64,000 nucleotides of DNA from a bacterium. GTDB lineage: Bacteria > UBA10199 > 2-02-FULL-44-16 > JAAZCA01. The stretch spans positions 248,001 to 312,000 of the forward strand of contig JAJZQH010000002.1 of NCBI GenBank assembly GCA_021810905.1, read 5' to 3'. Shown here piece after piece: positions 24,533-45,645 of this stretch. Both the position numbers and the translations under genes were made by a program. The notes below the pieces were generated by a model. The model was not told the DNA's origin and did no database searches. It saw nothing but the letters and a program-made list of their open reading frames with translations. The first letter of the stretch is position 1; each line of letters opens with the position of its first letter.

Positions 24533-24548
24533 TGGCACATCCCTTGCT
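24533..24548 (+). promoter_or_regulatory. Sigma54 (RpoN) -24/-12 promoter
   Basis: TGGCAC-N5-TTGCT is an exact match to the sigma54 consensus, with the GG and GC dinucleotides at the right distance. It lies 72 nt before the ATG of the lipoprotein gene, which has AAGGAGG in front of it. Confidence 0.75.
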
Positions 24549-24619: not shown

Positions 24620-25438
24620 ATGAGGGAAAAGGGGCTTGGTCTGTTCGTCTGTCTTCTTTCGATTGCAGCTATTTGTGTGGGATGCGGCGCATCAGTTGGT
24701 GATCCGACCGAAGATGGCATAAAACCCGATGTTTATGTGCTCTATGATCCCGCTAACATCGAGACGGGCGGTCTGTCCGATATGGATCTCAACGTAAGTC
24801 TGGCAGTATCCGGAGCATTGACTTCCTATGCAAGCGTGGAGAACAAGTCCGAGTCTGTAACCTTAATCGTAAAACCGATTTCGATCGTCGATGTCGATCC
24901 TGTGCAGGCGCCTTGGTGTGGACATTGCGGGAGCGATGTCTACGACGCCTCAGCCACTTCTGTGACCAAGGACCTCTCTACAATATTCGAGCCGATACCG
25001 ATTAAAGTAGTCATCGATCCCATTGTTGATGTGGGTGACATACAGGCGCCCTGGTGCGGACACTGTGTAAATCCGCTTACTAAATCTCTGGATATTGTTC
25101 CGCTCGCAGTGCGGGTTACCGTCTTACCGGTAGTAGATGACGCTTCGGCCCCCTGGTGTGGGCACTGCAACACGCCGTTGGATTTCGTACTGACTCCGGA
25201 TTCCATAAGCACCTCTACCAACAAAGGTCTGACTTCAATTTCAACGTCGCCATTATCCTCTACTCTCACGCCGGTCATATCCGAATCCGAAGTTCTGGCG
25301 CCCTGGTGCGGCCATTGTACGTCTCCTATCGATATCATAGTGGCGCCCGGGGACCTCATAACCGGATCGAGCATATCAAAATCGATAGATGGGAATGTCG
25401 AGATGATAGAGGTGGGTTATGATGTGGCGCCGCTCTGA
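24620..25438 (+). CDS. Lipoprotein with four APWCGHC (PDI-type) motifs
   Basis: 272 residues. Signal peptide with lipobox CVGC. The motif APWCGHC, identical to the active site of protein disulfide isomerases, occurs four times at residues 97-103, 143-149, 177-183 and 227-233. There is no thioredoxin fold around it: the stretches between motifs are short (27-43 residues), beta-prone, and rich in Val/Ile/Pro/Asp/Ser (for example IPIKVVIDPIVDVGDIQ). At DNA level the four motifs differ only at silent positions. Each motif follows a hydrophobic strand and precedes a polar turn, as if four small repeats each display one CGHC. A redox or metal-binding role in the periplasm is likely but unproven. 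Driven by a sigma54-type promoter, with a strong terminator after it. Confidence 0.8.
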   Translation: MREKGLGLFVCLLSIAAICVGCGASVGDPTEDGIKPDVYVLYDPANIETGGLSDMDLNVSLAVSGALTSYASVENKSESVTLIVKPISIVDVDPVQAPWCGHCGSDVYDASATSVTKDLSTIFEPIPIKVVIDPIVDVGDIQAPWCGHCVNPLTKSLDIVPLAVRVTVLPVVDDASAPWCGHCNTPLDFVLTPDSISTSTNKGLTSISTSPLSSTLTPVISESEVLAPWCGHCTSPIDIIVAPGDLITGSSISKSIDGNVEMIEVGYDVAPL

Positions 25439-38612: not shown

Positions 38613-39854
38613 TCACGGCTTTGACAGCAGGGAGGTAACGCGGAATTGTTTTTCGATCAGCCACCTTGTAAATGCCTCGGTATCGTTTCCGAGCGCGGCG
38701 CGCTTGAGCTCTTCATCCAGCCCCCACAGCCCTCGGACCTCCGCGCGAATTTCCGGCTGCGCCTGAGCATCTCGACACAGGTATGGAAAATTTTTGCGAA
38801 CGTCTCTGAGGCTCGCCTCATATTCGGGACTTCCTCTATCCAAACTCAGCATCTCTTTGGAAATCGAGGCGAGGGGCCTTGAGGGATTGGCGGCGAAATA
38901 TCGTTGAATGAGGCGCATGAGAAATTCGGGAAGAGGTCCCAGCGCATTTCGCGTGGCAAAATGCCTCGCTTCATCGTTGAGCGTATCGAGAAATTTCCTT
39001 TCGTAGTCTTTTTCGGATTCAGAGACGGCGTGAATATCGAAGACCCTGAAGCGTCGAGTTGCCGTATCAAACATCACGTTGTGACCACCGGTAAAAGATA
39101 CATCGGACAAGAAGAGGCCTTCTCGGTAACATCCATCGATAATTTCAAATGCATCGTCAACCAGCTGCCCAATCAGCGCGCTATCTTCCTGCAATGCCGC
39201 GCAATAGGGGCCCAGCTCCAGACCTTCAACGTATTCGATGCCAACGATATCGCTGATCTCGAAATATATTCTCGGCAGGATTTTTTTAAGGACCGCATGT
39301 GATGCCTGCATCGCAGGCGTATCATGCCCGTCGCGCTTCAACACGACCTTGAACGTTTCGCCGCCGGGAAGGAAATGTTCGACGATAACGACCGGCTGCT
39401 GCTTCCCCTTTCGATAGGGAGGCAACAATCGGTATTTGATGTCATCCAATTCACCCTCGCTGAGAAAACTGTTTCTGTCGGAGCAAATCGCGTGGTAGGC
39501 CTTGACTGCAATGTCTATCACAGACTTTTCGTTAGCTGCGATCAACTGCGCGACGGCTCCGGCGCTCGTCAACCCTTCGTCAGGGGCTTTCGGCGGATGA
39601 ATCCGTCTGGCAGCGATTCCCCCCTGCATGAGCTGACCGGGGCAAAGGGCTTTGAATTGAGATCCAGAAGGGTCCAGGAAGGAATCGTTGTCGCCGAGAT
39701 GGGTGTGATCTGCGCCGGGGTATTCGCCGATGCCTTCGAGTTGCAGCTCCTGGGCATCCGCATCCACCTCGGCAATCGTATCCTCTCCGCCCTCTTGAGC
39801 CATGAGGGCGGTATCAGCACCGGCTACTCCCGGAGGGAGATTGACGCGCGTCAT
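38613..39854 (-). CDS. Divergent protein-kinase-like protein
   Basis: 413 residues. After an acidic N terminus (residues 1-100) the sequence follows a kinase fold: 'PVVIVEHFLPGGETFKVVLKRDG' (glycine-poor loop and possible Lys), a hinge-like VEGLELGPYC, then LFLSDVSFTGGHNVMFDTATRRFRVFDIHAVS, where GGHNVMFD would be the catalytic loop with Asn and DIH stands in place of DFG. The catalytic Asp is replaced or shifted. It may be a pseudokinase or an aminoglycoside-kinase-type enzyme. GAAGGA precedes the start. Divergent from the peptide/radical SAM operon. Confidence 0.55.
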   Translation of the reverse strand: MTRVNLPPGVAGADTALMAQEGGEDTIAEVDADAQELQLEGIGEYPGADHTHLGDNDSFLDPSGSQFKALCPGQLMQGGIAARRIHPPKAPDEGLTSAGAVAQLIAANEKSVIDIAVKAYHAICSDRNSFLSEGELDDIKYRLLPPYRKGKQQPVVIVEHFLPGGETFKVVLKRDGHDTPAMQASHAVLKKILPRIYFEISDIVGIEYVEGLELGPYCAALQEDSALIGQLVDDAFEIIDGCYREGLFLSDVSFTGGHNVMFDTATRRFRVFDIHAVSESEKDYERKFLDTLNDEARHFATRNALGPLPEFLMRLIQRYFAANPSRPLASISKEMLSLDRGSPEYEASLRDVRKNFPYLCRDAQAQPEIRAEVRGLWGLDEELKRAALGNDTEAFTRWLIEKQFRVTSLLSKP

Positions 39855-40104
39855 AAGAGAATCCTTCTTGATCGCATATGCTTCTCAATTGATTATCGGC
39901 GTTCTTGCGAAAAAGTTGCGGGAATATATTAACAACCACATGTCCTTGAACCGATGCGTTGGCAACATCGAGGTATCGATAGACCGTGGCGTTGTTCTGA
40001 TTTCAGTGCACGATATGTTCTGAATTCCGGATTTCCGAACACGGACAGTCAGCCTCTATTTTCACTTGAACCAAATAAATCAAATAGTTGCGCCGATCTA
40101 TGTG

Positions 40105-40121
40105 TTGGCGCGATCATTGCA
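40105..40121 (+). promoter_or_regulatory. Sigma54-type promoter for peptide/radical SAM operon
   Basis: TGGCGC-N5-TTGCA (with TTGGC at -24) matches the sigma54 -24/-12 pattern except for G instead of A at one position. It lies 115 nt before the methyltransferase ATG. The rest of the 39855-40236 gap contains only a short frame (39802-40023) that I do not believe; a weak TTCCGG/CCGAA palindrome at about 40023-40037 could be an activator site. Confidence 0.6.
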
Positions 40122-40236
40122 ATATGAATTATCATGAATTAGTTCGAGAACAGTGACATCTCTCAAAGGCATTATTTCAAATACGTTGTTTCATTGAAGG
40201 CATTCATCATCATGACTGCCTTGGAAGGATGGATTT

Positions 40237-41256
40237 ATGAGCATGATTCAATCTATGCGCGGCATGATCGGAGATATGTACGCTGTTTATGCCATCGACC
40301 TGGGAGTGGAATTGGGTCTTTTCGATGAACTGGCTGCTTCCGAAGAACCGGTCGACATCAGGGAACTCGCCGAGAGAGCCGATTGTCGGGCAAACGATGA
40401 CATGCTTCACGGATGGATGAGGGCGGTACAGGCGGCGGGTATCGTGAATGTGGATGAAAACAACCGCGTCTCCTTTCAAGGGGGTTGGCGGGAAGCCCTT
40501 ACGGACCCCACGAGCACCGAATACGTGGCGACATTGCCGAGATGCTATATCGCCCTGGCAGAGGCGTATCCTCGGTTCGCGGAGCTCTTTCGGGAAGGCA
40601 AGTCTCTCCCCTGGCAGAAGCTGGGAAAATCGGTCGTTGAAGATATTTCAGCGGACAGTCTGCGCGCGGCGAATTTCTTCATCAAGGCCGTCGTTCCCAG
40701 GGTGCCTGGCCTTCGCGAGAAGCTCGAAAACGGGGCTCGCGTGTGCGACGTCGGTTGCAGTGCCGGCCATATGACGATCAGGCTCGCGGAAGCGTTTTCA
40801 TCGGCCCGATTCGTCGGAATTGATCCGTGGCAGGACGCGATCGACCTCGCGAAACAGCACGCAGCGGAACACGGCGTCGCAGATCGCGTGACGTTTCAAA
40901 TGCAGTGTGCGAGCGAGCTGCCTGGCGGTACCTATGATATCGTGCTGCTCAATGACGTGCTCCATGAAATGGATCAGGGCTTGAGAGTCAAGGCATTGCA
41001 CGCCATTTGCGGTTCGCTCCGCAAGGGCGGGGGATTGTTCTTCTCCGACCCGATCGCCCCGGCAGCACACTCGGATTTTCTGAAGCCGTCGTCGCGAGTG
41101 CCTTCCATCACGCTCTTTTTCGAGACGCCGTTCGGCGCAAAAGTGCATACGAGGCTCGAACTCGAACGGTTCCTGCGGGAAGCCGGGTTTGGCGCGCCCA
41201 CGGAAATCGAATCAACCGATACCGATATCTGCGTCTATCTGGAGCCGGTTCGCTGA
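40237..41256 (+). CDS. SAM-dependent methyltransferase with N-terminal winged-helix domain
   Basis: 339 residues. The N-terminal part (about 1-95) is a dimerisation/winged-helix module as in O-methyltransferases, and the C-terminal part is a class I fold with SAM motif I VCDVGCSAGHMTI, then the acidic VGIDPWQ and the LNDVLHEMD motif. First gene of the operon; GGAAGGA lies before the ATG. It may methylate the peptide encoded next, or another small molecule. Placed 41 nt before the peptide gene. Confidence 0.8.
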   Translation: MSMIQSMRGMIGDMYAVYAIDLGVELGLFDELAASEEPVDIRELAERADCRANDDMLHGWMRAVQAAGIVNVDENNRVSFQGGWREALTDPTSTEYVATLPRCYIALAEAYPRFAELFREGKSLPWQKLGKSVVEDISADSLRAANFFIKAVVPRVPGLREKLENGARVCDVGCSAGHMTIRLAEAFSSARFVGIDPWQDAIDLAKQHAAEHGVADRVTFQMQCASELPGGTYDIVLLNDVLHEMDQGLRVKALHAICGSLRKGGGLFFSDPIAPAAHSDFLKPSSRVPSITLFFETPFGAKVHTRLELERFLREAGFGAPTEIESTDTDICVYLEPVR

Positions 41257-41297
41257 AGCAGTCCCGGCACGATGCTGAAACCATACAGGAGGGCGAA

Positions 41298-41471
41298 ATG
41301 AAAGATCGTTCCAGGAAAGTGAAGGAAGTGCAGGAGAGCCAGCGGGATCCGTTAGGCCTCGACTGCGGCATGCGGAAGAACATCGTCCGCAGGATCGTCG
41401 TGGGCGGCGTCGCAGCTGCAGTTACCCTGACGCCGCTCGTCGTCTTTGGATGCACAGTGAAATTCAGATAG
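41298..41471 (+). CDS. Candidate peptide precursor (57 aa)
   Basis: A small frame with AGGAGGG before the ATG. The N-terminal half is polar and basic (MKDRSRKVKEVQESQRD), then DPLGLDCGM, then RR-IVVGG (Arg31-Arg32, Gly36-Gly37) and a hydrophobic end with FGC (Cys52) and TVKFR. It resembles either a leader-core precursor with a double-Gly site, a Tat-like signal, or a short lipoprotein signal that would leave only a six-residue mature peptide. It lies between a methyltransferase and a radical SAM/SPASM enzyme, which fits a ribosomally made, modified peptide. Not yet a known family. Confidence 0.6.
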   Translation: MKDRSRKVKEVQESQRDPLGLDCGMRKNIVRRIVVGGVAAAVTLTPLVVFGCTVKFR

Positions 41472-41524
41472 AAGGCTTGCGGCCAGACCACCTTGGCTGC
41501 GGGGAGATTCGGGTTTTCATCACT

Positions 41525-42682
41525 ATGCTCTATAAACTTCAGTGCCAGGGAGTCGAATATACCTATGACCCGAACCGGAATAGAATTCTGGACGGTCACG
41601 GCAGAAAGGTCCGGCGACTGGACCGCGAGTCTGTTGATGCGGAAATGCCCTCCGGGGACCTCATATTCGTCGAGCTCACGAGGGCGTGCAATTTAATGTG
41701 CTCCTACTGCTATCTCGGCGCCGCGCAGACGAACTCTCCGGTCGAAGCATCGAACGACCATAAATTCGTATCGATCACGAAGAAATTGAATGAACTGCTG
41801 CGCGGCCGCAAAGAAGCCACAATCGCCTTTTATGGAGGCGAGCCGCTCCTGGAGTTCGACCTGTTGCGACGGATCGTCGAATTTTGCGACCGGATGATGG
41901 TGAACGAGGGATATCGGCTGACATACGGCATCGTCACCAATGGGACACTCCTGGACGACCGCACGGTTTCATATCTCATCGACAGACATTTTTTAGTCGT
42001 GATCAGCCTGGATGGAGATCCGGAAACCATGCTCCTGAATCGAAACGTGAGGGACGTGGATCGGATTGAGGCGGCGATTCAAATCTTCGCCGACCGCGGA
42101 CTTCACGCCGATGTGCTGGCTACGATGCAGCAAGCGAATGCCGCGGCCTTCCGGAAGAATATCCGCTATCTGCTCCACCTGCCCATCAAGAGTGTGAAAT
42201 TCATTGCGTGCGATTCCCCTTGCGCCAGCAAAACGCTTCACGCGGCGCAGGCTAAAGATTTCTGCGCCGCATATGAAGAGATCGTATCGGAGTTGCTGGC
42301 GGAAAAAAAGTTCGAGGAACTCAGGAAGCTCTCGGAGCTCATCGCGGTCGTCCGCAAGATCGATTACGGGAAAGCGATCGCAAGCCATTGCGGCTACGGA
42401 AGCAAAGTGCTTGCCGTATCGCAGGATGGAGAGATTTATCCCTGTCCTTCATTTCTGGGGAATACCGACTATCGCATTTCAGAAGGGGTCGTGAAATATC
42501 CGCCTCACGATCTTCGCAAATGCGGCGATTGCATAGCGCACAGCACGTGTCGGGGCAGTTGCCATTATACCAACTACGTCGCCTCCGCGTGCGCGGATGG
42601 CGGGAAGGAGGCCAAGTGTATCATCGCGAGACGAATGACGAAGCTGGCGCTTCAAACCTATCTTGAATTGTACATAAGGTGA
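41525..42682 (+). CDS. Radical SAM/SPASM enzyme, probable peptide maturase
   Basis: 385 residues. CNLMCSYC (Cys55, Cys59, Cys62) is the radical SAM cluster motif, followed by the GGEPLLEF box. The C terminus has the SPASM pattern: EIYPCPSF, then KCGDC, HSTCRGSCH and a final CxxxxxxxxC, which should hold auxiliary 4Fe-4S clusters. Peptide maturases of this type crosslink or epimerise RiPP precursors; anSME-like sulfatase maturation is an alternative. Start chosen at 41525, since the 41450 ATG would overlap the peptide. Next gene starts 12 nt later. Confidence 0.8.
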   Translation: MLYKLQCQGVEYTYDPNRNRILDGHGRKVRRLDRESVDAEMPSGDLIFVELTRACNLMCSYCYLGAAQTNSPVEASNDHKFVSITKKLNELLRGRKEATIAFYGGEPLLEFDLLRRIVEFCDRMMVNEGYRLTYGIVTNGTLLDDRTVSYLIDRHFLVVISLDGDPETMLLNRNVRDVDRIEAAIQIFADRGLHADVLATMQQANAAAFRKNIRYLLHLPIKSVKFIACDSPCASKTLHAAQAKDFCAAYEEIVSELLAEKKFEELRKLSELIAVVRKIDYGKAIASHCGYGSKVLAVSQDGEIYPCPSFLGNTDYRISEGVVKYPPHDLRKCGDCIAHSTCRGSCHYTNYVASACADGGKEAKCIIARRMTKLALQTYLELYIR

Positions 42683-42694
42683 TCGAGGGAGAAA

Positions 42695-43894
42695 ATGAGA
42701 CGTCTTTACAGAAAAGAGATCAGCGGTTCTGTTCCGTCGAGCATCGTGTCATTGATGATTGTGACGCTGGCGTTCCTTGCCGGCCTCACATGCGCGGGAC
42801 CCGCGAGCGCCGCTGACAAGATACCCGTGCTCAATATCGCGCTCATTCATACGTATTCGAAGGCCGATCCCCTCTGTTACGATCCTTACGGCAAAAGCCT
42901 GCTCAATGGCGTGGAAATGGCGTGGGATGATTTCAAGCGGCAAAACGCGCCATTGGGTTTCGACGTCCGGTTCGTCAAATATGACCTAGGCGACAGCAAG
43001 ATGAAGGCGATGGAGATGATGGACGAAGCGGACCGGGACGGGGCCGTTGCGGCGCTCGGCTATATCTGCTCGGACCTCGCGCTGCTCGGAGGGAAACGGG
43101 CCCAGGAGTTGAAGATTCCAATGGTGACGCCCACGGCAACCGACGATCGCGTTGCCGACATCGGCGATTATCTCTTCACGGCGATCTTCAAGAATTCCGA
43201 GCAGGGAGAGGCACTCGCCAGATATGCGGCGCTCGATCTCAAAAAAAAGAAGACGCTCGTGATCTCCGCGGTCGATTGCGCCTTCTGCACGTCGCTTGCG
43301 GATTCGTACGAACGCTCGTTCAAACGGCTCGGCGGCAGCATCACCGGTGAACTCAAGATCCTCACGTCGGAGCGCAATTTTGAGTCCGTGATCAAAGAGG
43401 CGGGATCGCTCGATTATGATTCGGTGTTGCTCGCTAACTACGCGATACAAATCGCAGGAATCATCGCCGAGTTCCTCAAGAGCGGAAAGGATGTCGTTTT
43501 CCTCGGCGGCGATTCGTGGGTCTGGACGGAGAGATTTCATGAAATCGTCGGAGACCGGGACTTCGAGGGTTATTCTATCGCCGGCTGGGTCCCGGAGTTT
43601 CCGACGAAGAAGTCGAAAGATTTTGTTGCGAACTATCGCCGCAGATACAAAGAAAACCTGGTCGATACCGCCGCCCACAGTTACGACGCCGCTACGATTT
43701 TGTTCAACGCGATAAAAAACGCTGTCGCCTGCGACCGGCAACATATCAAAACGGCATTGTATAGGATTGGAACCTATCATGGTGTCAGCGGTCAGCACAT
43801 CTTCAACGGACGCAACTGGCCCAAACATTCCTTTGTGCTGTTGAAGAATACCAACAAGGAACAGAAGATAGTTCGGTTGATCGAGCCACAATGA
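42695..43894 (+). CDS. Periplasmic binding protein (branched-chain amino acid type)
   Basis: 399 residues with a signal peptide (core LMIVTLAFLAGL, then ASAAD). It has the two-lobed fold of type 1 binding proteins: PVLNIALIHTYSKAD start, NGVEMAWDDF, PMVTPTATDD, and the SYDAATILFNAI helix near the end. No ABC permease or ATPase is nearby. Its TGA overlaps the ATG of the kinase gene (ATGA), which suggests that the two form a sensor pair like LuxP/LuxQ. Confidence 0.85.
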   Translation: MRRLYRKEISGSVPSSIVSLMIVTLAFLAGLTCAGPASAADKIPVLNIALIHTYSKADPLCYDPYGKSLLNGVEMAWDDFKRQNAPLGFDVRFVKYDLGDSKMKAMEMMDEADRDGAVAALGYICSDLALLGGKRAQELKIPMVTPTATDDRVADIGDYLFTAIFKNSEQGEALARYAALDLKKKKTLVISAVDCAFCTSLADSYERSFKRLGGSITGELKILTSERNFESVIKEAGSLDYDSVLLANYAIQIAGIIAEFLKSGKDVVFLGGDSWVWTERFHEIVGDRDFEGYSIAGWVPEFPTKKSKDFVANYRRRYKENLVDTAAHSYDAATILFNAIKNAVACDRQHIKTALYRIGTYHGVSGQHIFNGRNWPKHSFVLLKNTNKEQKIVRLIEPQ

Positions 43895-45645
43895 AACTCT
43901 CTCATCAAATAAGCATCGTCGTGTTCGGCATCATTGCCGTGTTCATCGCTATGGGAATAGCGCTGAACAACTGGTATGCCAGAATCCAAACCGAAAAAAA
44001 CCTGGTCGCGACGACCGGGTCGCTCATCGCGTCATTCCGCAGCGACGGCGACCAGATCATGGCCAACATGATCCTCCAGCAGACGGACGGGCTGAGATTG
44101 TACCTCGAACAAATGAAGCTCCGTGACCAGTTGCTGGAGGCGGTGATCGTTACGGATCGGCAATTTGAGGCCGAGACGAGCGCGAAACCGTGCCTCGCGA
44201 TGTTTCGCGATTCTGATACCTGCATCGAGAGCAACGGCCGTCGCTACGTCCTCTATAACCGATTGCGCTATGGCAACGTGGAGCTCGGGTATCTCAAGAG
44301 GGTGTATGCCGTAGCGGGCGAGAAATTATTTACGCCGATGCATATGCGATATCTGGCGATTATTTTCATCCCCCTCATCGTCGCGATCTTCATCGCCGTC
44401 TCGCGGGTGCTCAACCGCATGGTCGTCAAACCTCTGAGGGAACTCTGCGACAGCATCCAACCGCTCAAGAGAGGAAAATTCGACATCCGTATCTCATCGC
44501 CTAAATCCCATGAGCTGAGAGTCCTGATCCAGAATATCGACATGATCCTCAGGGAATTGCGGCGACATCAGGAAGAGCGCGCGCTCATTGAAGAGGGGAG
44601 GCGAAAGCAGGAGACCTCAGCCGCGCTGGCCGAAGCAGCCGCTCAGGTGGCCCACGACATGCGCTCGCCCCTTTCCGTGCTCAAGGCGTATCTCGGTTCT
44701 GCGGCGCCGAAGCGCGAAGACGACGTGGAGTGTGCCGCTGCGGCAGAGCGCAGCGTTAACAAATTGTTGCATATGGCCGACGATCTTGTCGACTACGCCA
44801 AGGCCTCGAAAATAGATCGCTCGAGAAGGAGCCGATTGAAAGAGATGCTCGAGAACGCGATTGCCGAAGTCAGAAACAAGGCCGAGGAAAAGGGCGTTTC
44901 GGTCGGTTACCATATGGACACCGCATTCTGCGTTGACGCCGATGAGTACCGGATGGAGCGCGTATTCGTCAATCTCGCCGACAATGCTATTCAGGCGTGC
45001 GATCGCGGCGGTTCTGTGACGATCGAGGCGTCTGCGGAACGCGATACGTCGCTCGTCATCAGGGTGTCGGATGATGGCAGAGGAATTGCTCCCGAGTATA
45101 GGCAGAGGATCTTCGACAGTTTTTTCACGAAAAACAAAAAAGGCGGCACCGGCCTCGGGCTTTCCTATTGCAAGCAGGTGGTCGAGGCGCATGGCGGCAC
45201 CATCGAAGTGATGAGCGAGGTGGGAAGCGGATCGACGTTTACGATCCGCATACCCGACTGCATCGTCTCCGATGCGGACGCGCGTATGGATGTGGATGAG
45301 CCTAATATAAACTGCGCCGGTCGCAAATTCGTGCTGATCGACGACAATTCCGACATCAGGCTTCGCTGGCGCAGGATCGTGGAGCAATCTGGCGGCAAAG
45401 TCCTCTGCGAAGCAGATTCATACGAATCCCTGGTCAAGAACGAAGGCTTGAACGTCGATGACGCGGACGTCGCTATCGTCGATTACAACTACGACGGCTC
45501 CTGCAAGACCGGCATCGATGTCATATCCTACCTCAAGAAGCGCGGCCTCGAGGATATCTATCTCTGCACGGGGCATGCCGGCGACGCCGATATTTGCAGG
45601 GCTGCGCTGGCGGCCGGCGCGGTCTCGGTCATCATGAAGGAGTAG
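43891..45645 (+). CDS. Hybrid sensor histidine kinase
   Basis: 584 residues. Two membrane helices (about 7-27 and 152-172) around a periplasmic sensor region, then HAMP, HisKA with phospho-His255 in AHDMRSPLSVL, an HATPase domain with NLADNAIQA (N box), DDGRGIA and GTGLGLSYC, and a C-terminal receiver domain with Asp531 in VAIVDYNYDG and the Lys in IMKE. Co-translated with the binding protein. It would report ligand-bound state to a response partner that is not in this window. Confidence 0.93.
   Translation: MKLSHQISIVVFGIIAVFIAMGIALNNWYARIQTEKNLVATTGSLIASFRSDGDQIMANMILQQTDGLRLYLEQMKLRDQLLEAVIVTDRQFEAETSAKPCLAMFRDSDTCIESNGRRYVLYNRLRYGNVELGYLKRVYAVAGEKLFTPMHMRYLAIIFIPLIVAIFIAVSRVLNRMVVKPLRELCDSIQPLKRGKFDIRISSPKSHELRVLIQNIDMILRELRRHQEERALIEEGRRKQETSAALAEAAAQVAHDMRSPLSVLKAYLGSAAPKREDDVECAAAAERSVNKLLHMADDLVDYAKASKIDRSRRSRLKEMLENAIAEVRNKAEEKGVSVGYHMDTAFCVDADEYRMERVFVNLADNAIQACDRGGSVTIEASAERDTSLVIRVSDDGRGIAPEYRQRIFDSFFTKNKKGGTGLGLSYCKQVVEAHGGTIEVMSEVGSGSTFTIRIPDCIVSDADARMDVDEPNINCAGRKFVLIDDNSDIRLRWRRIVEQSGGKVLCEADSYESLVKNEGLNVDDADVAIVDYNYDGSCKTGIDVISYLKKRGLEDIYLCTGHAGDADICRAALAAGAVSVIMKE

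Follow-up and report, generated by a model that had tools for sequence, protein, structure and literature searches.

A sigma54-associated bacterial operon with a small peptide, a radical SAM/SPASM enzyme, and a binding protein–kinase pair lacking a transporter

Gene content and promoter of the operon

The window analyzed here, a 64-kb stretch of bacterial DNA (G000:C9:248001-312000) to whose numbering the coordinates of the operon refer, contains five genes on the same strand at 40237-45645, encoding a SAM-dependent methyltransferase, a 57-aa peptide, a radical SAM/SPASM enzyme, a periplasmic type 1 binding protein (SBP), and a hybrid histidine kinase. The genes are separated by short gaps or overlap, as the original prediction had described, and lie behind a plus-strand sigma54 −24/−12 promoter-like site, TGGCGCGATCATTGCA (40106..40121), which reads TGGCGCG-N4-TTGCA and, with a score of 15.2 of 15.9, is the second best in the 64 kb. 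All of these genes except that of the peptide have Pfam matches (methyltransferase, radical SAM, Peripla_BP_6, and HisKA-HATPase-receiver). The first of these (40237..41256, plus strand) encodes a 339-aa protein matching PF13847 (6e-20) and, weakly, a Dimerisation domain. No gene for an ABC permease or ATPase, an exporter, a peptidase, an NtrC-type regulator, or an HPt protein was found in the operon.

None of the other genomes searched has the exact order of the five genes, which is thus known once; recurrence in other genera was one of the checks set by the original prediction. The literature searched, mostly that outside subscription journals, yielded no description of a system with these genes, in line with the claim that the set belongs to no named system. 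A divergent 413-aa open reading frame (ORF) without a Pfam match adjoins the operon (38613-39854, minus strand), and another strong sigma54-like site, TGGCACATCCCTTGCT, occurs at 24533, about 90 bp upstream of an ORF at 24620-25438.

The small peptide and the radical SAM/SPASM enzyme

The 57-aa peptide (MKDRSRKVKEVQESQRDPLGLDCGMRKNIVRRIVVGGVAAAVTLTPLVVFGCTVKFR; 41298..41471, plus strand) comprises a basic N-terminal part and, by hydropathy, one hydrophobic helix, with Cys52 and the residues TVKFR at its end. The AGGAGGG Shine-Dalgarno (SD) site, a strong one, Cys23, Gly36-Gly37, and Cys52 are all present as predicted. In codon usage the peptide gene resembles the genes in the window, falling at the 54th percentile of real gene fragments, a score that just 2% of non-coding open frames reach; when the region was shuffled, 1.2% of the shuffled sequences contained an ATG-initiated ORF of 50 aa or more preceded by an SD site of this kind. 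The peptide has no Pfam match, and its ORF overlaps the longest ORF of the radical SAM enzyme, which opens at 41450. A search of 60 genomes returned chance-level matches only, so that the conserved, alignable homologue on which the original prediction had counted was not found; one match, on contig C41 of genome G033, was discarded as lying within a porin-like ORF. The locus closest to the operon, that of G033, does carry a small peptide gene, however: its 44-aa product shares with the 57-aa peptide a basic N-terminal part, a single hydrophobic helix, and a Cys close to the C terminus, followed by TVKFR in the window and by KH in G033, the two sequences having no convincing alignment. On the simplest reading, the short Cys-containing tail would face the periplasm and be modified and released, a candidate fate for the peptide.

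The radical SAM/SPASM enzyme (PF04055, 2.6e-14; 385 aa) is probably encoded at 41525..42682 on the plus strand, since a start at 41525 matches the usual start of the radical SAM domain better than does that at 41450. As claimed, it carries the radical SAM motif CxxxCxxC, as CNLMCSYC, together with the full seven-Cys SPASM pattern (C-x-G-x4-C, C-x2-C-x5-C-x3-C, C), the Pfam SPASM model itself scoring 14.3 bits against a cutoff of 21.5. The best NCBIfam models (PapB, 142 bits; nif11, 120; QHNDH, 106; SCIFF, 95) all remain far below their cutoffs. Assignment as a PapB ranthipeptide maturase (NF047865; 142.3 bits against 340) was rejected, as was that as a SCIFF maturase (TIGR03974; 94.6 bits against 425), the peptide having two Cys residues whereas a SCIFF precursor requires six. 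The window thus has in common with these systems a radical SAM core with SPASM and an adjacent small peptide gene, but not their family-level scores or Cys-rich precursor patterns. Grouping with sulfatase maturases, which would have spoken against the original prediction, was not observed either: the anaerobic sulfatase maturase model (TIGR03942) scores 79.6 bits against a cutoff of 349 and is exceeded by eight other models, mostly of peptide maturases, and the nearest solved structure, 5wgg—which we take to be the SCIFF maturase CteB—ranks ahead of the sulfatase-maturating enzymes 4k36 and 4k37. No relative was found in 385 genomes at E ≤ 1e-30 or in genome and viral contig collections, and matches among plasmids are only 23-27% identical. 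These best models, the nearest structure, and the lack of close relatives in the genomes searched make the protein an orphan among SPASM enzymes, of peptide-maturase type.

The binding protein–kinase pair and its relatives

The SBP (42695..43894, plus strand; 399 aa; PF13458, 3e-34; predicted model with a pLDDT of 71) is nearest to amino-acid binders and contains a conserved pair of cysteines, C195-x-x-C198. A family with this CxxC invariant was found in 6 of about 440 genomes, the six coming from three phyla, and the screen consisting of a profile search of 385 genomes and further searches, one of which largely re-sampled the same genomes. The members are those of the window, G033, G028, and G045, all of the same class, and of G088 and G261, from other phyla. 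In the 385-genome search, the six scored between 1e-177 and 1e-110, and ordinary branched-chain amino acid SBPs 1e-67 and weaker; of three among the best weaker matches, two lie in normal ABC operons, the third, in G372, having no obvious transporter genes nearby. Neither the profile in the phyla of G261 and G088, which yielded no new member, nor a three-member alignment against a genome contig collection, which returned only the two loci already known, enlarged the family.

The original prediction of a binding protein without a transporter and joined by ATGA to a hybrid kinase is borne out in the window and extends to the relatives. ABC importer genes are absent from the operon and from the examined flanks of the other five loci, and the family was accordingly rejected as SBPs of ABC importers, for which an adjacent permease and ATPase are required. 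In loci with examined flanks the SBP adjoins a kinase, except in G028, where a related kinase is encoded 5 kb upstream. The CxxC pair is kept in all six SBPs, and two sensor cysteines in the five kinases aligned. The other neighbors vary among methyltransferase, GNAT, SDR, amidohydrolase, dipeptide ligase, radical SAM, and EamA exporter genes. In the nearest locus, from a groundwater Deltaproteobacteria MAG (G033, JACPAJ010000062.1; SBP 45% identical), genes for an NtrC regulator, the 44-aa peptide, a GNAT, and an amidohydrolase precede the SBP, and the kinase follows with the same ATGA overlap; the bacterium of the window is related to such uncultured groundwater "Deltaproteobacteria". The order in G088 (JAHFAK010000131.1) is NtrC regulator, methyltransferase, SDR, SBP, and kinase; G261 has an EamA exporter, radical SAM, SBP, kinase, NtrC regulator, and GNAT; G045 has a shikimate-kinase-like gene, SBP, kinase, and a CofH/MqnC-type radical SAM; and G028 has an LAL-type ATP-grasp (dipeptide) ligase, GNAT, EamA fused to a radical SAM-like domain, and SBP, after which the contig ends. 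The GNAT, EamA, and radical SAM parts are homologous between G028 and G261, in a different gene order. The pair therefore recurs in other genera and phyla beside genes that modify small molecules or peptides (one neighborhood being cut by a contig end), and the receptor pair is kept while the enzymes are swapped—as would be expected if the enzymes make the ligand.

The kinase (43891..45645, plus strand; 584 aa; PF00512, PF02518, PF00072) consists of a two-Cys periplasmic sensor, HisKA, HATPase, and a short receiver. A fold search with the predicted model of the sensor (pLDDT 74) gave no PDB match at E < 0.001. The receiver (45600-45645) ends directly after its conserved Lys (SVIMKE), as does that of the G002 kinase (SVIQKV), so that neither has the last helix. 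By similarity the protein is a mosaic, its sensor matching the G033 kinase and its core that encoded on contig C15 of the same genome as the window (44% identical over 383 residues, phosphotransfer helix included). Among 46 genomes of the class, the window and C15 kinases are by far the top matches, ahead of G002 (1e-123) and then 1e-72; because the query profile was itself built from these two sequences, it is their distance from the next matches that is telling. The C15 locus comprises a perfect sigma54 site, an NtrC regulator (46% identical to that of G033), a methyltransferase, an SBP, and the hybrid kinase. Its regulator is the likely partner of the window kinase, given the similarity of the cores and the distance to those next matches.

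Three TGTTC/GAACA half-sites (39993, 40016, and 40037; 39993..40041, without assigned strand), 69-113 bp upstream of the sigma54 site, form a candidate NtrC-type enhancer. The motif was read from palindromes at C15 and G033; in the four other upstream regions, to which the count is confined (window, two of G002, and G088), nine half-sites occur against 2.6 expected (P = 0.0014), mostly at −68 to −113. Since TGTTC was chosen after inspection of two promoters, this enrichment is no more than suggestive of an enhancer for an NtrC-type regulator common to the window and related promoters. TGAGACT palindromes occur upstream of a sigma54 site in G045 (L038:5548-5610) and of the EamA operon of G261 (L071:8100-8125), possibly the enhancer type of the other branch.

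Autocrine signaling and its alternatives

The best of several readings, in which we place roughly even confidence, is that the operon is an autocrine signaling unit with feedback through an NtrC regulator and sigma54. The methyltransferase and radical SAM/SPASM enzyme, with the 57-aa peptide as their probable substrate, would make a small amino-acid-like or short-peptide signal that reaches the periplasm and is captured by the SBP; the loaded SBP would activate (or inhibit) the paired kinase, which would pass phosphate to an NtrC-type regulator, most likely that of C15; and the regulator, binding the TGTTC half-sites, would drive the operon with sigma54, closing a loop whose sign may be either. 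The operon genes and their recurrence in relatives are firmly established. The autocrine reading is favored by the placing of the SBP–kinase family beside varied synthesis genes, with ordinary ABC operons below the score gap; by the EamA exporter, which is fused to a radical SAM domain in G028 and neighbors one in G261, the two loci also having homologous GNATs; by the peptide-like ORF of G033; by NtrC regulators beginning just behind sigma54 sites in G033 and G088, and by that of C15 in the same genome; by the kinase-core match and shared half-sites; and by the SBP's nearness to amino-acid binders. Counting against it are the single occurrence of the exact operon, with no exporter or peptidase in it; the lack of a detectable sigma54 promoter in G261 and the downstream position of that in G045; the presence of a peptide gene at only two of the six SBP loci; the distance of the C15 SBP (19% identical); and the possibility that the neighboring enzymes consume the sensed compound rather than make it. 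Of the original prediction that the peptide is modified, exported, and sensed, the recurrent transporter-less pair, the peptide of G033, and the peptide-maturase-like enzyme have held up, and the gene order, the peptide homologue, and the lipobox have not; beyond it go the NtrC regulator that the operon probably shares with another locus of the genome, the half-sites found at several promoters, and the wider enzyme-swapping family.

Alternatively, the pair may detect an environmental amino acid or peptide, from nutrients or neighbors, and induce a modified peptide or metabolite that is itself no signal. The SBP's resemblance to amino-acid binders suits this, as does the Pseudomonas syringae triad AatJ-AauS-AauR, which senses Asp/Glu (PMC7386598); the lack of uptake genes in examined flanks, unlike in aat/aau, and makers that differ per locus beside a kept receptor, which changing self-made ligands fit better, leave it somewhat unlikely. 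Also unlikely is a role of the peptide as a small membrane or regulatory protein, with the radical SAM enzyme acting on a free amino acid or other substrate: the scarcity of such peptides at the SBP loci and the dipeptide ligase standing in its place in G028 would agree with this, but the nearest SPASM enzymes are peptide maturases and the peptide directly precedes the enzyme's gene. GNATs, methyltransferases, and EamA proteins, all present in these loci, are common in detoxification, and the pair could sense a toxic amino-acid-like compound and induce modifying enzymes (methyl and acetyl transfer) and efflux (EamA) in self-protection; the peptide gene, radical SAM/SPASM enzyme, and dipeptide ligase, however, speak for the building of compounds and not their removal, which renders this improbable. 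That the product is a lipopeptide pheromone released from the signal peptide of a lipoprotein, as is enterococcal cAD1, is very improbable and was rejected, since, although the peptide is likewise short and hydrophobic with a C-terminal Cys and LVVFGC at Cys52 loosely fits the lipobox-like end originally noted, a conserved lipobox is required and the G033 peptide has ATSAIC there, only five residues follow Cys52, and there is no lipoprotein body.

Known systems resemble the autocrine arrangement in part. Vibrio LuxPQ-LuxU-LuxO, which serves AI-2 quorum sensing, likewise pairs a periplasmic binding protein with a hybrid kinase and uses sigma54 with an NtrC-type regulator, on which several kinases converge (PMC5394107), but LuxP belongs to another SBP family, LuxS lies outside the operon, and no peptide or radical SAM is involved; the window operon, with a Peripla_BP_6 protein and neither HPt nor NtrC gene, was rejected as a LuxPQ-type receptor. 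AatJ-AauS-AauR is similar in that the SBP is needed for kinase output and the regulator activates its own locus, but is tied to an ABC importer and host Asp/Glu (PMC7386598), whereas the window has biosynthetic genes and no importer. Mechanistically, the window operon resembles both and belongs to neither, and quorum sensing proper, judged from gene order and promoters, would be a candidate function. Streptococcal SHP/Rgg with RaS-RiPP operons (tryglysin) also ties radical SAM peptide products to cell–cell signaling, but through a cytoplasmic Rgg receptor, in Gram-positive bacteria, and with a signal peptide separate from the RiPP (PMC8092268).

A kept sensor with swapped makers suggests an undescribed kind of bacterial signaling. 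More tentatively, the operon may stand for a new class among the autoinducer systems of Gram-negative bacteria. Its signal would be a ribosomal peptide that a radical SAM/SPASM enzyme and a methyltransferase bring to maturity and that a CxxC SBP and hybrid kinase sense, with sigma54 feedback, and relatives would alter the signal by swapping makers (GNAT, dipeptide ligase, SDR). If so, the CxxC SBP with the two-Cys kinase would be a sequence handle for self-made signals of uncultured bacteria, signal makers could be named by their position beside the receptor, Gram-negative bacteria would link radical SAM peptide chemistry with the sensing of signals in the periplasm, and the role of orphan SPASM peptides would be testable within one operon.

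Autocrine signaling is further favored by a parallel locus in a sister genus of the same family (G002), with a methyltransferase, an SBP_bac_5 protein, another methyltransferase, and a kinase of the same core (43% identical to that of the window), followed by a perfect sigma54 site, a radical SAM/SPASM enzyme nearest DynA (166 bits), and a 95-aa peptide. The two radical SAM enzymes are only 23% identical, so that the combination recurs, not the sequence. The His/Asp-rich peptide (SHSDHDKHDNGHEAHSDHDAHDNHMDRD; L122:8210-7923, minus strand), with a strong AAGGAGG SD site and directly 3′ of the enzyme gene, is a candidate RiPP precursor. It is followed by an uncharacterized ORF of 283 aa and by another that may encode an S41-type peptidase but has no family match. 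On the same contig (C80 of G002), a 9-aa ORF, MTPCRESGK (L122:14530-14460, minus strand), has a perfect SD site; its SD/start segment (TTAAGCTA) can pair with the downstream TAGCTTAA, after which comes a strong hairpin just 5′ of the methyltransferase gene, and this leader pairing and hairpin may possibly exert translational control.
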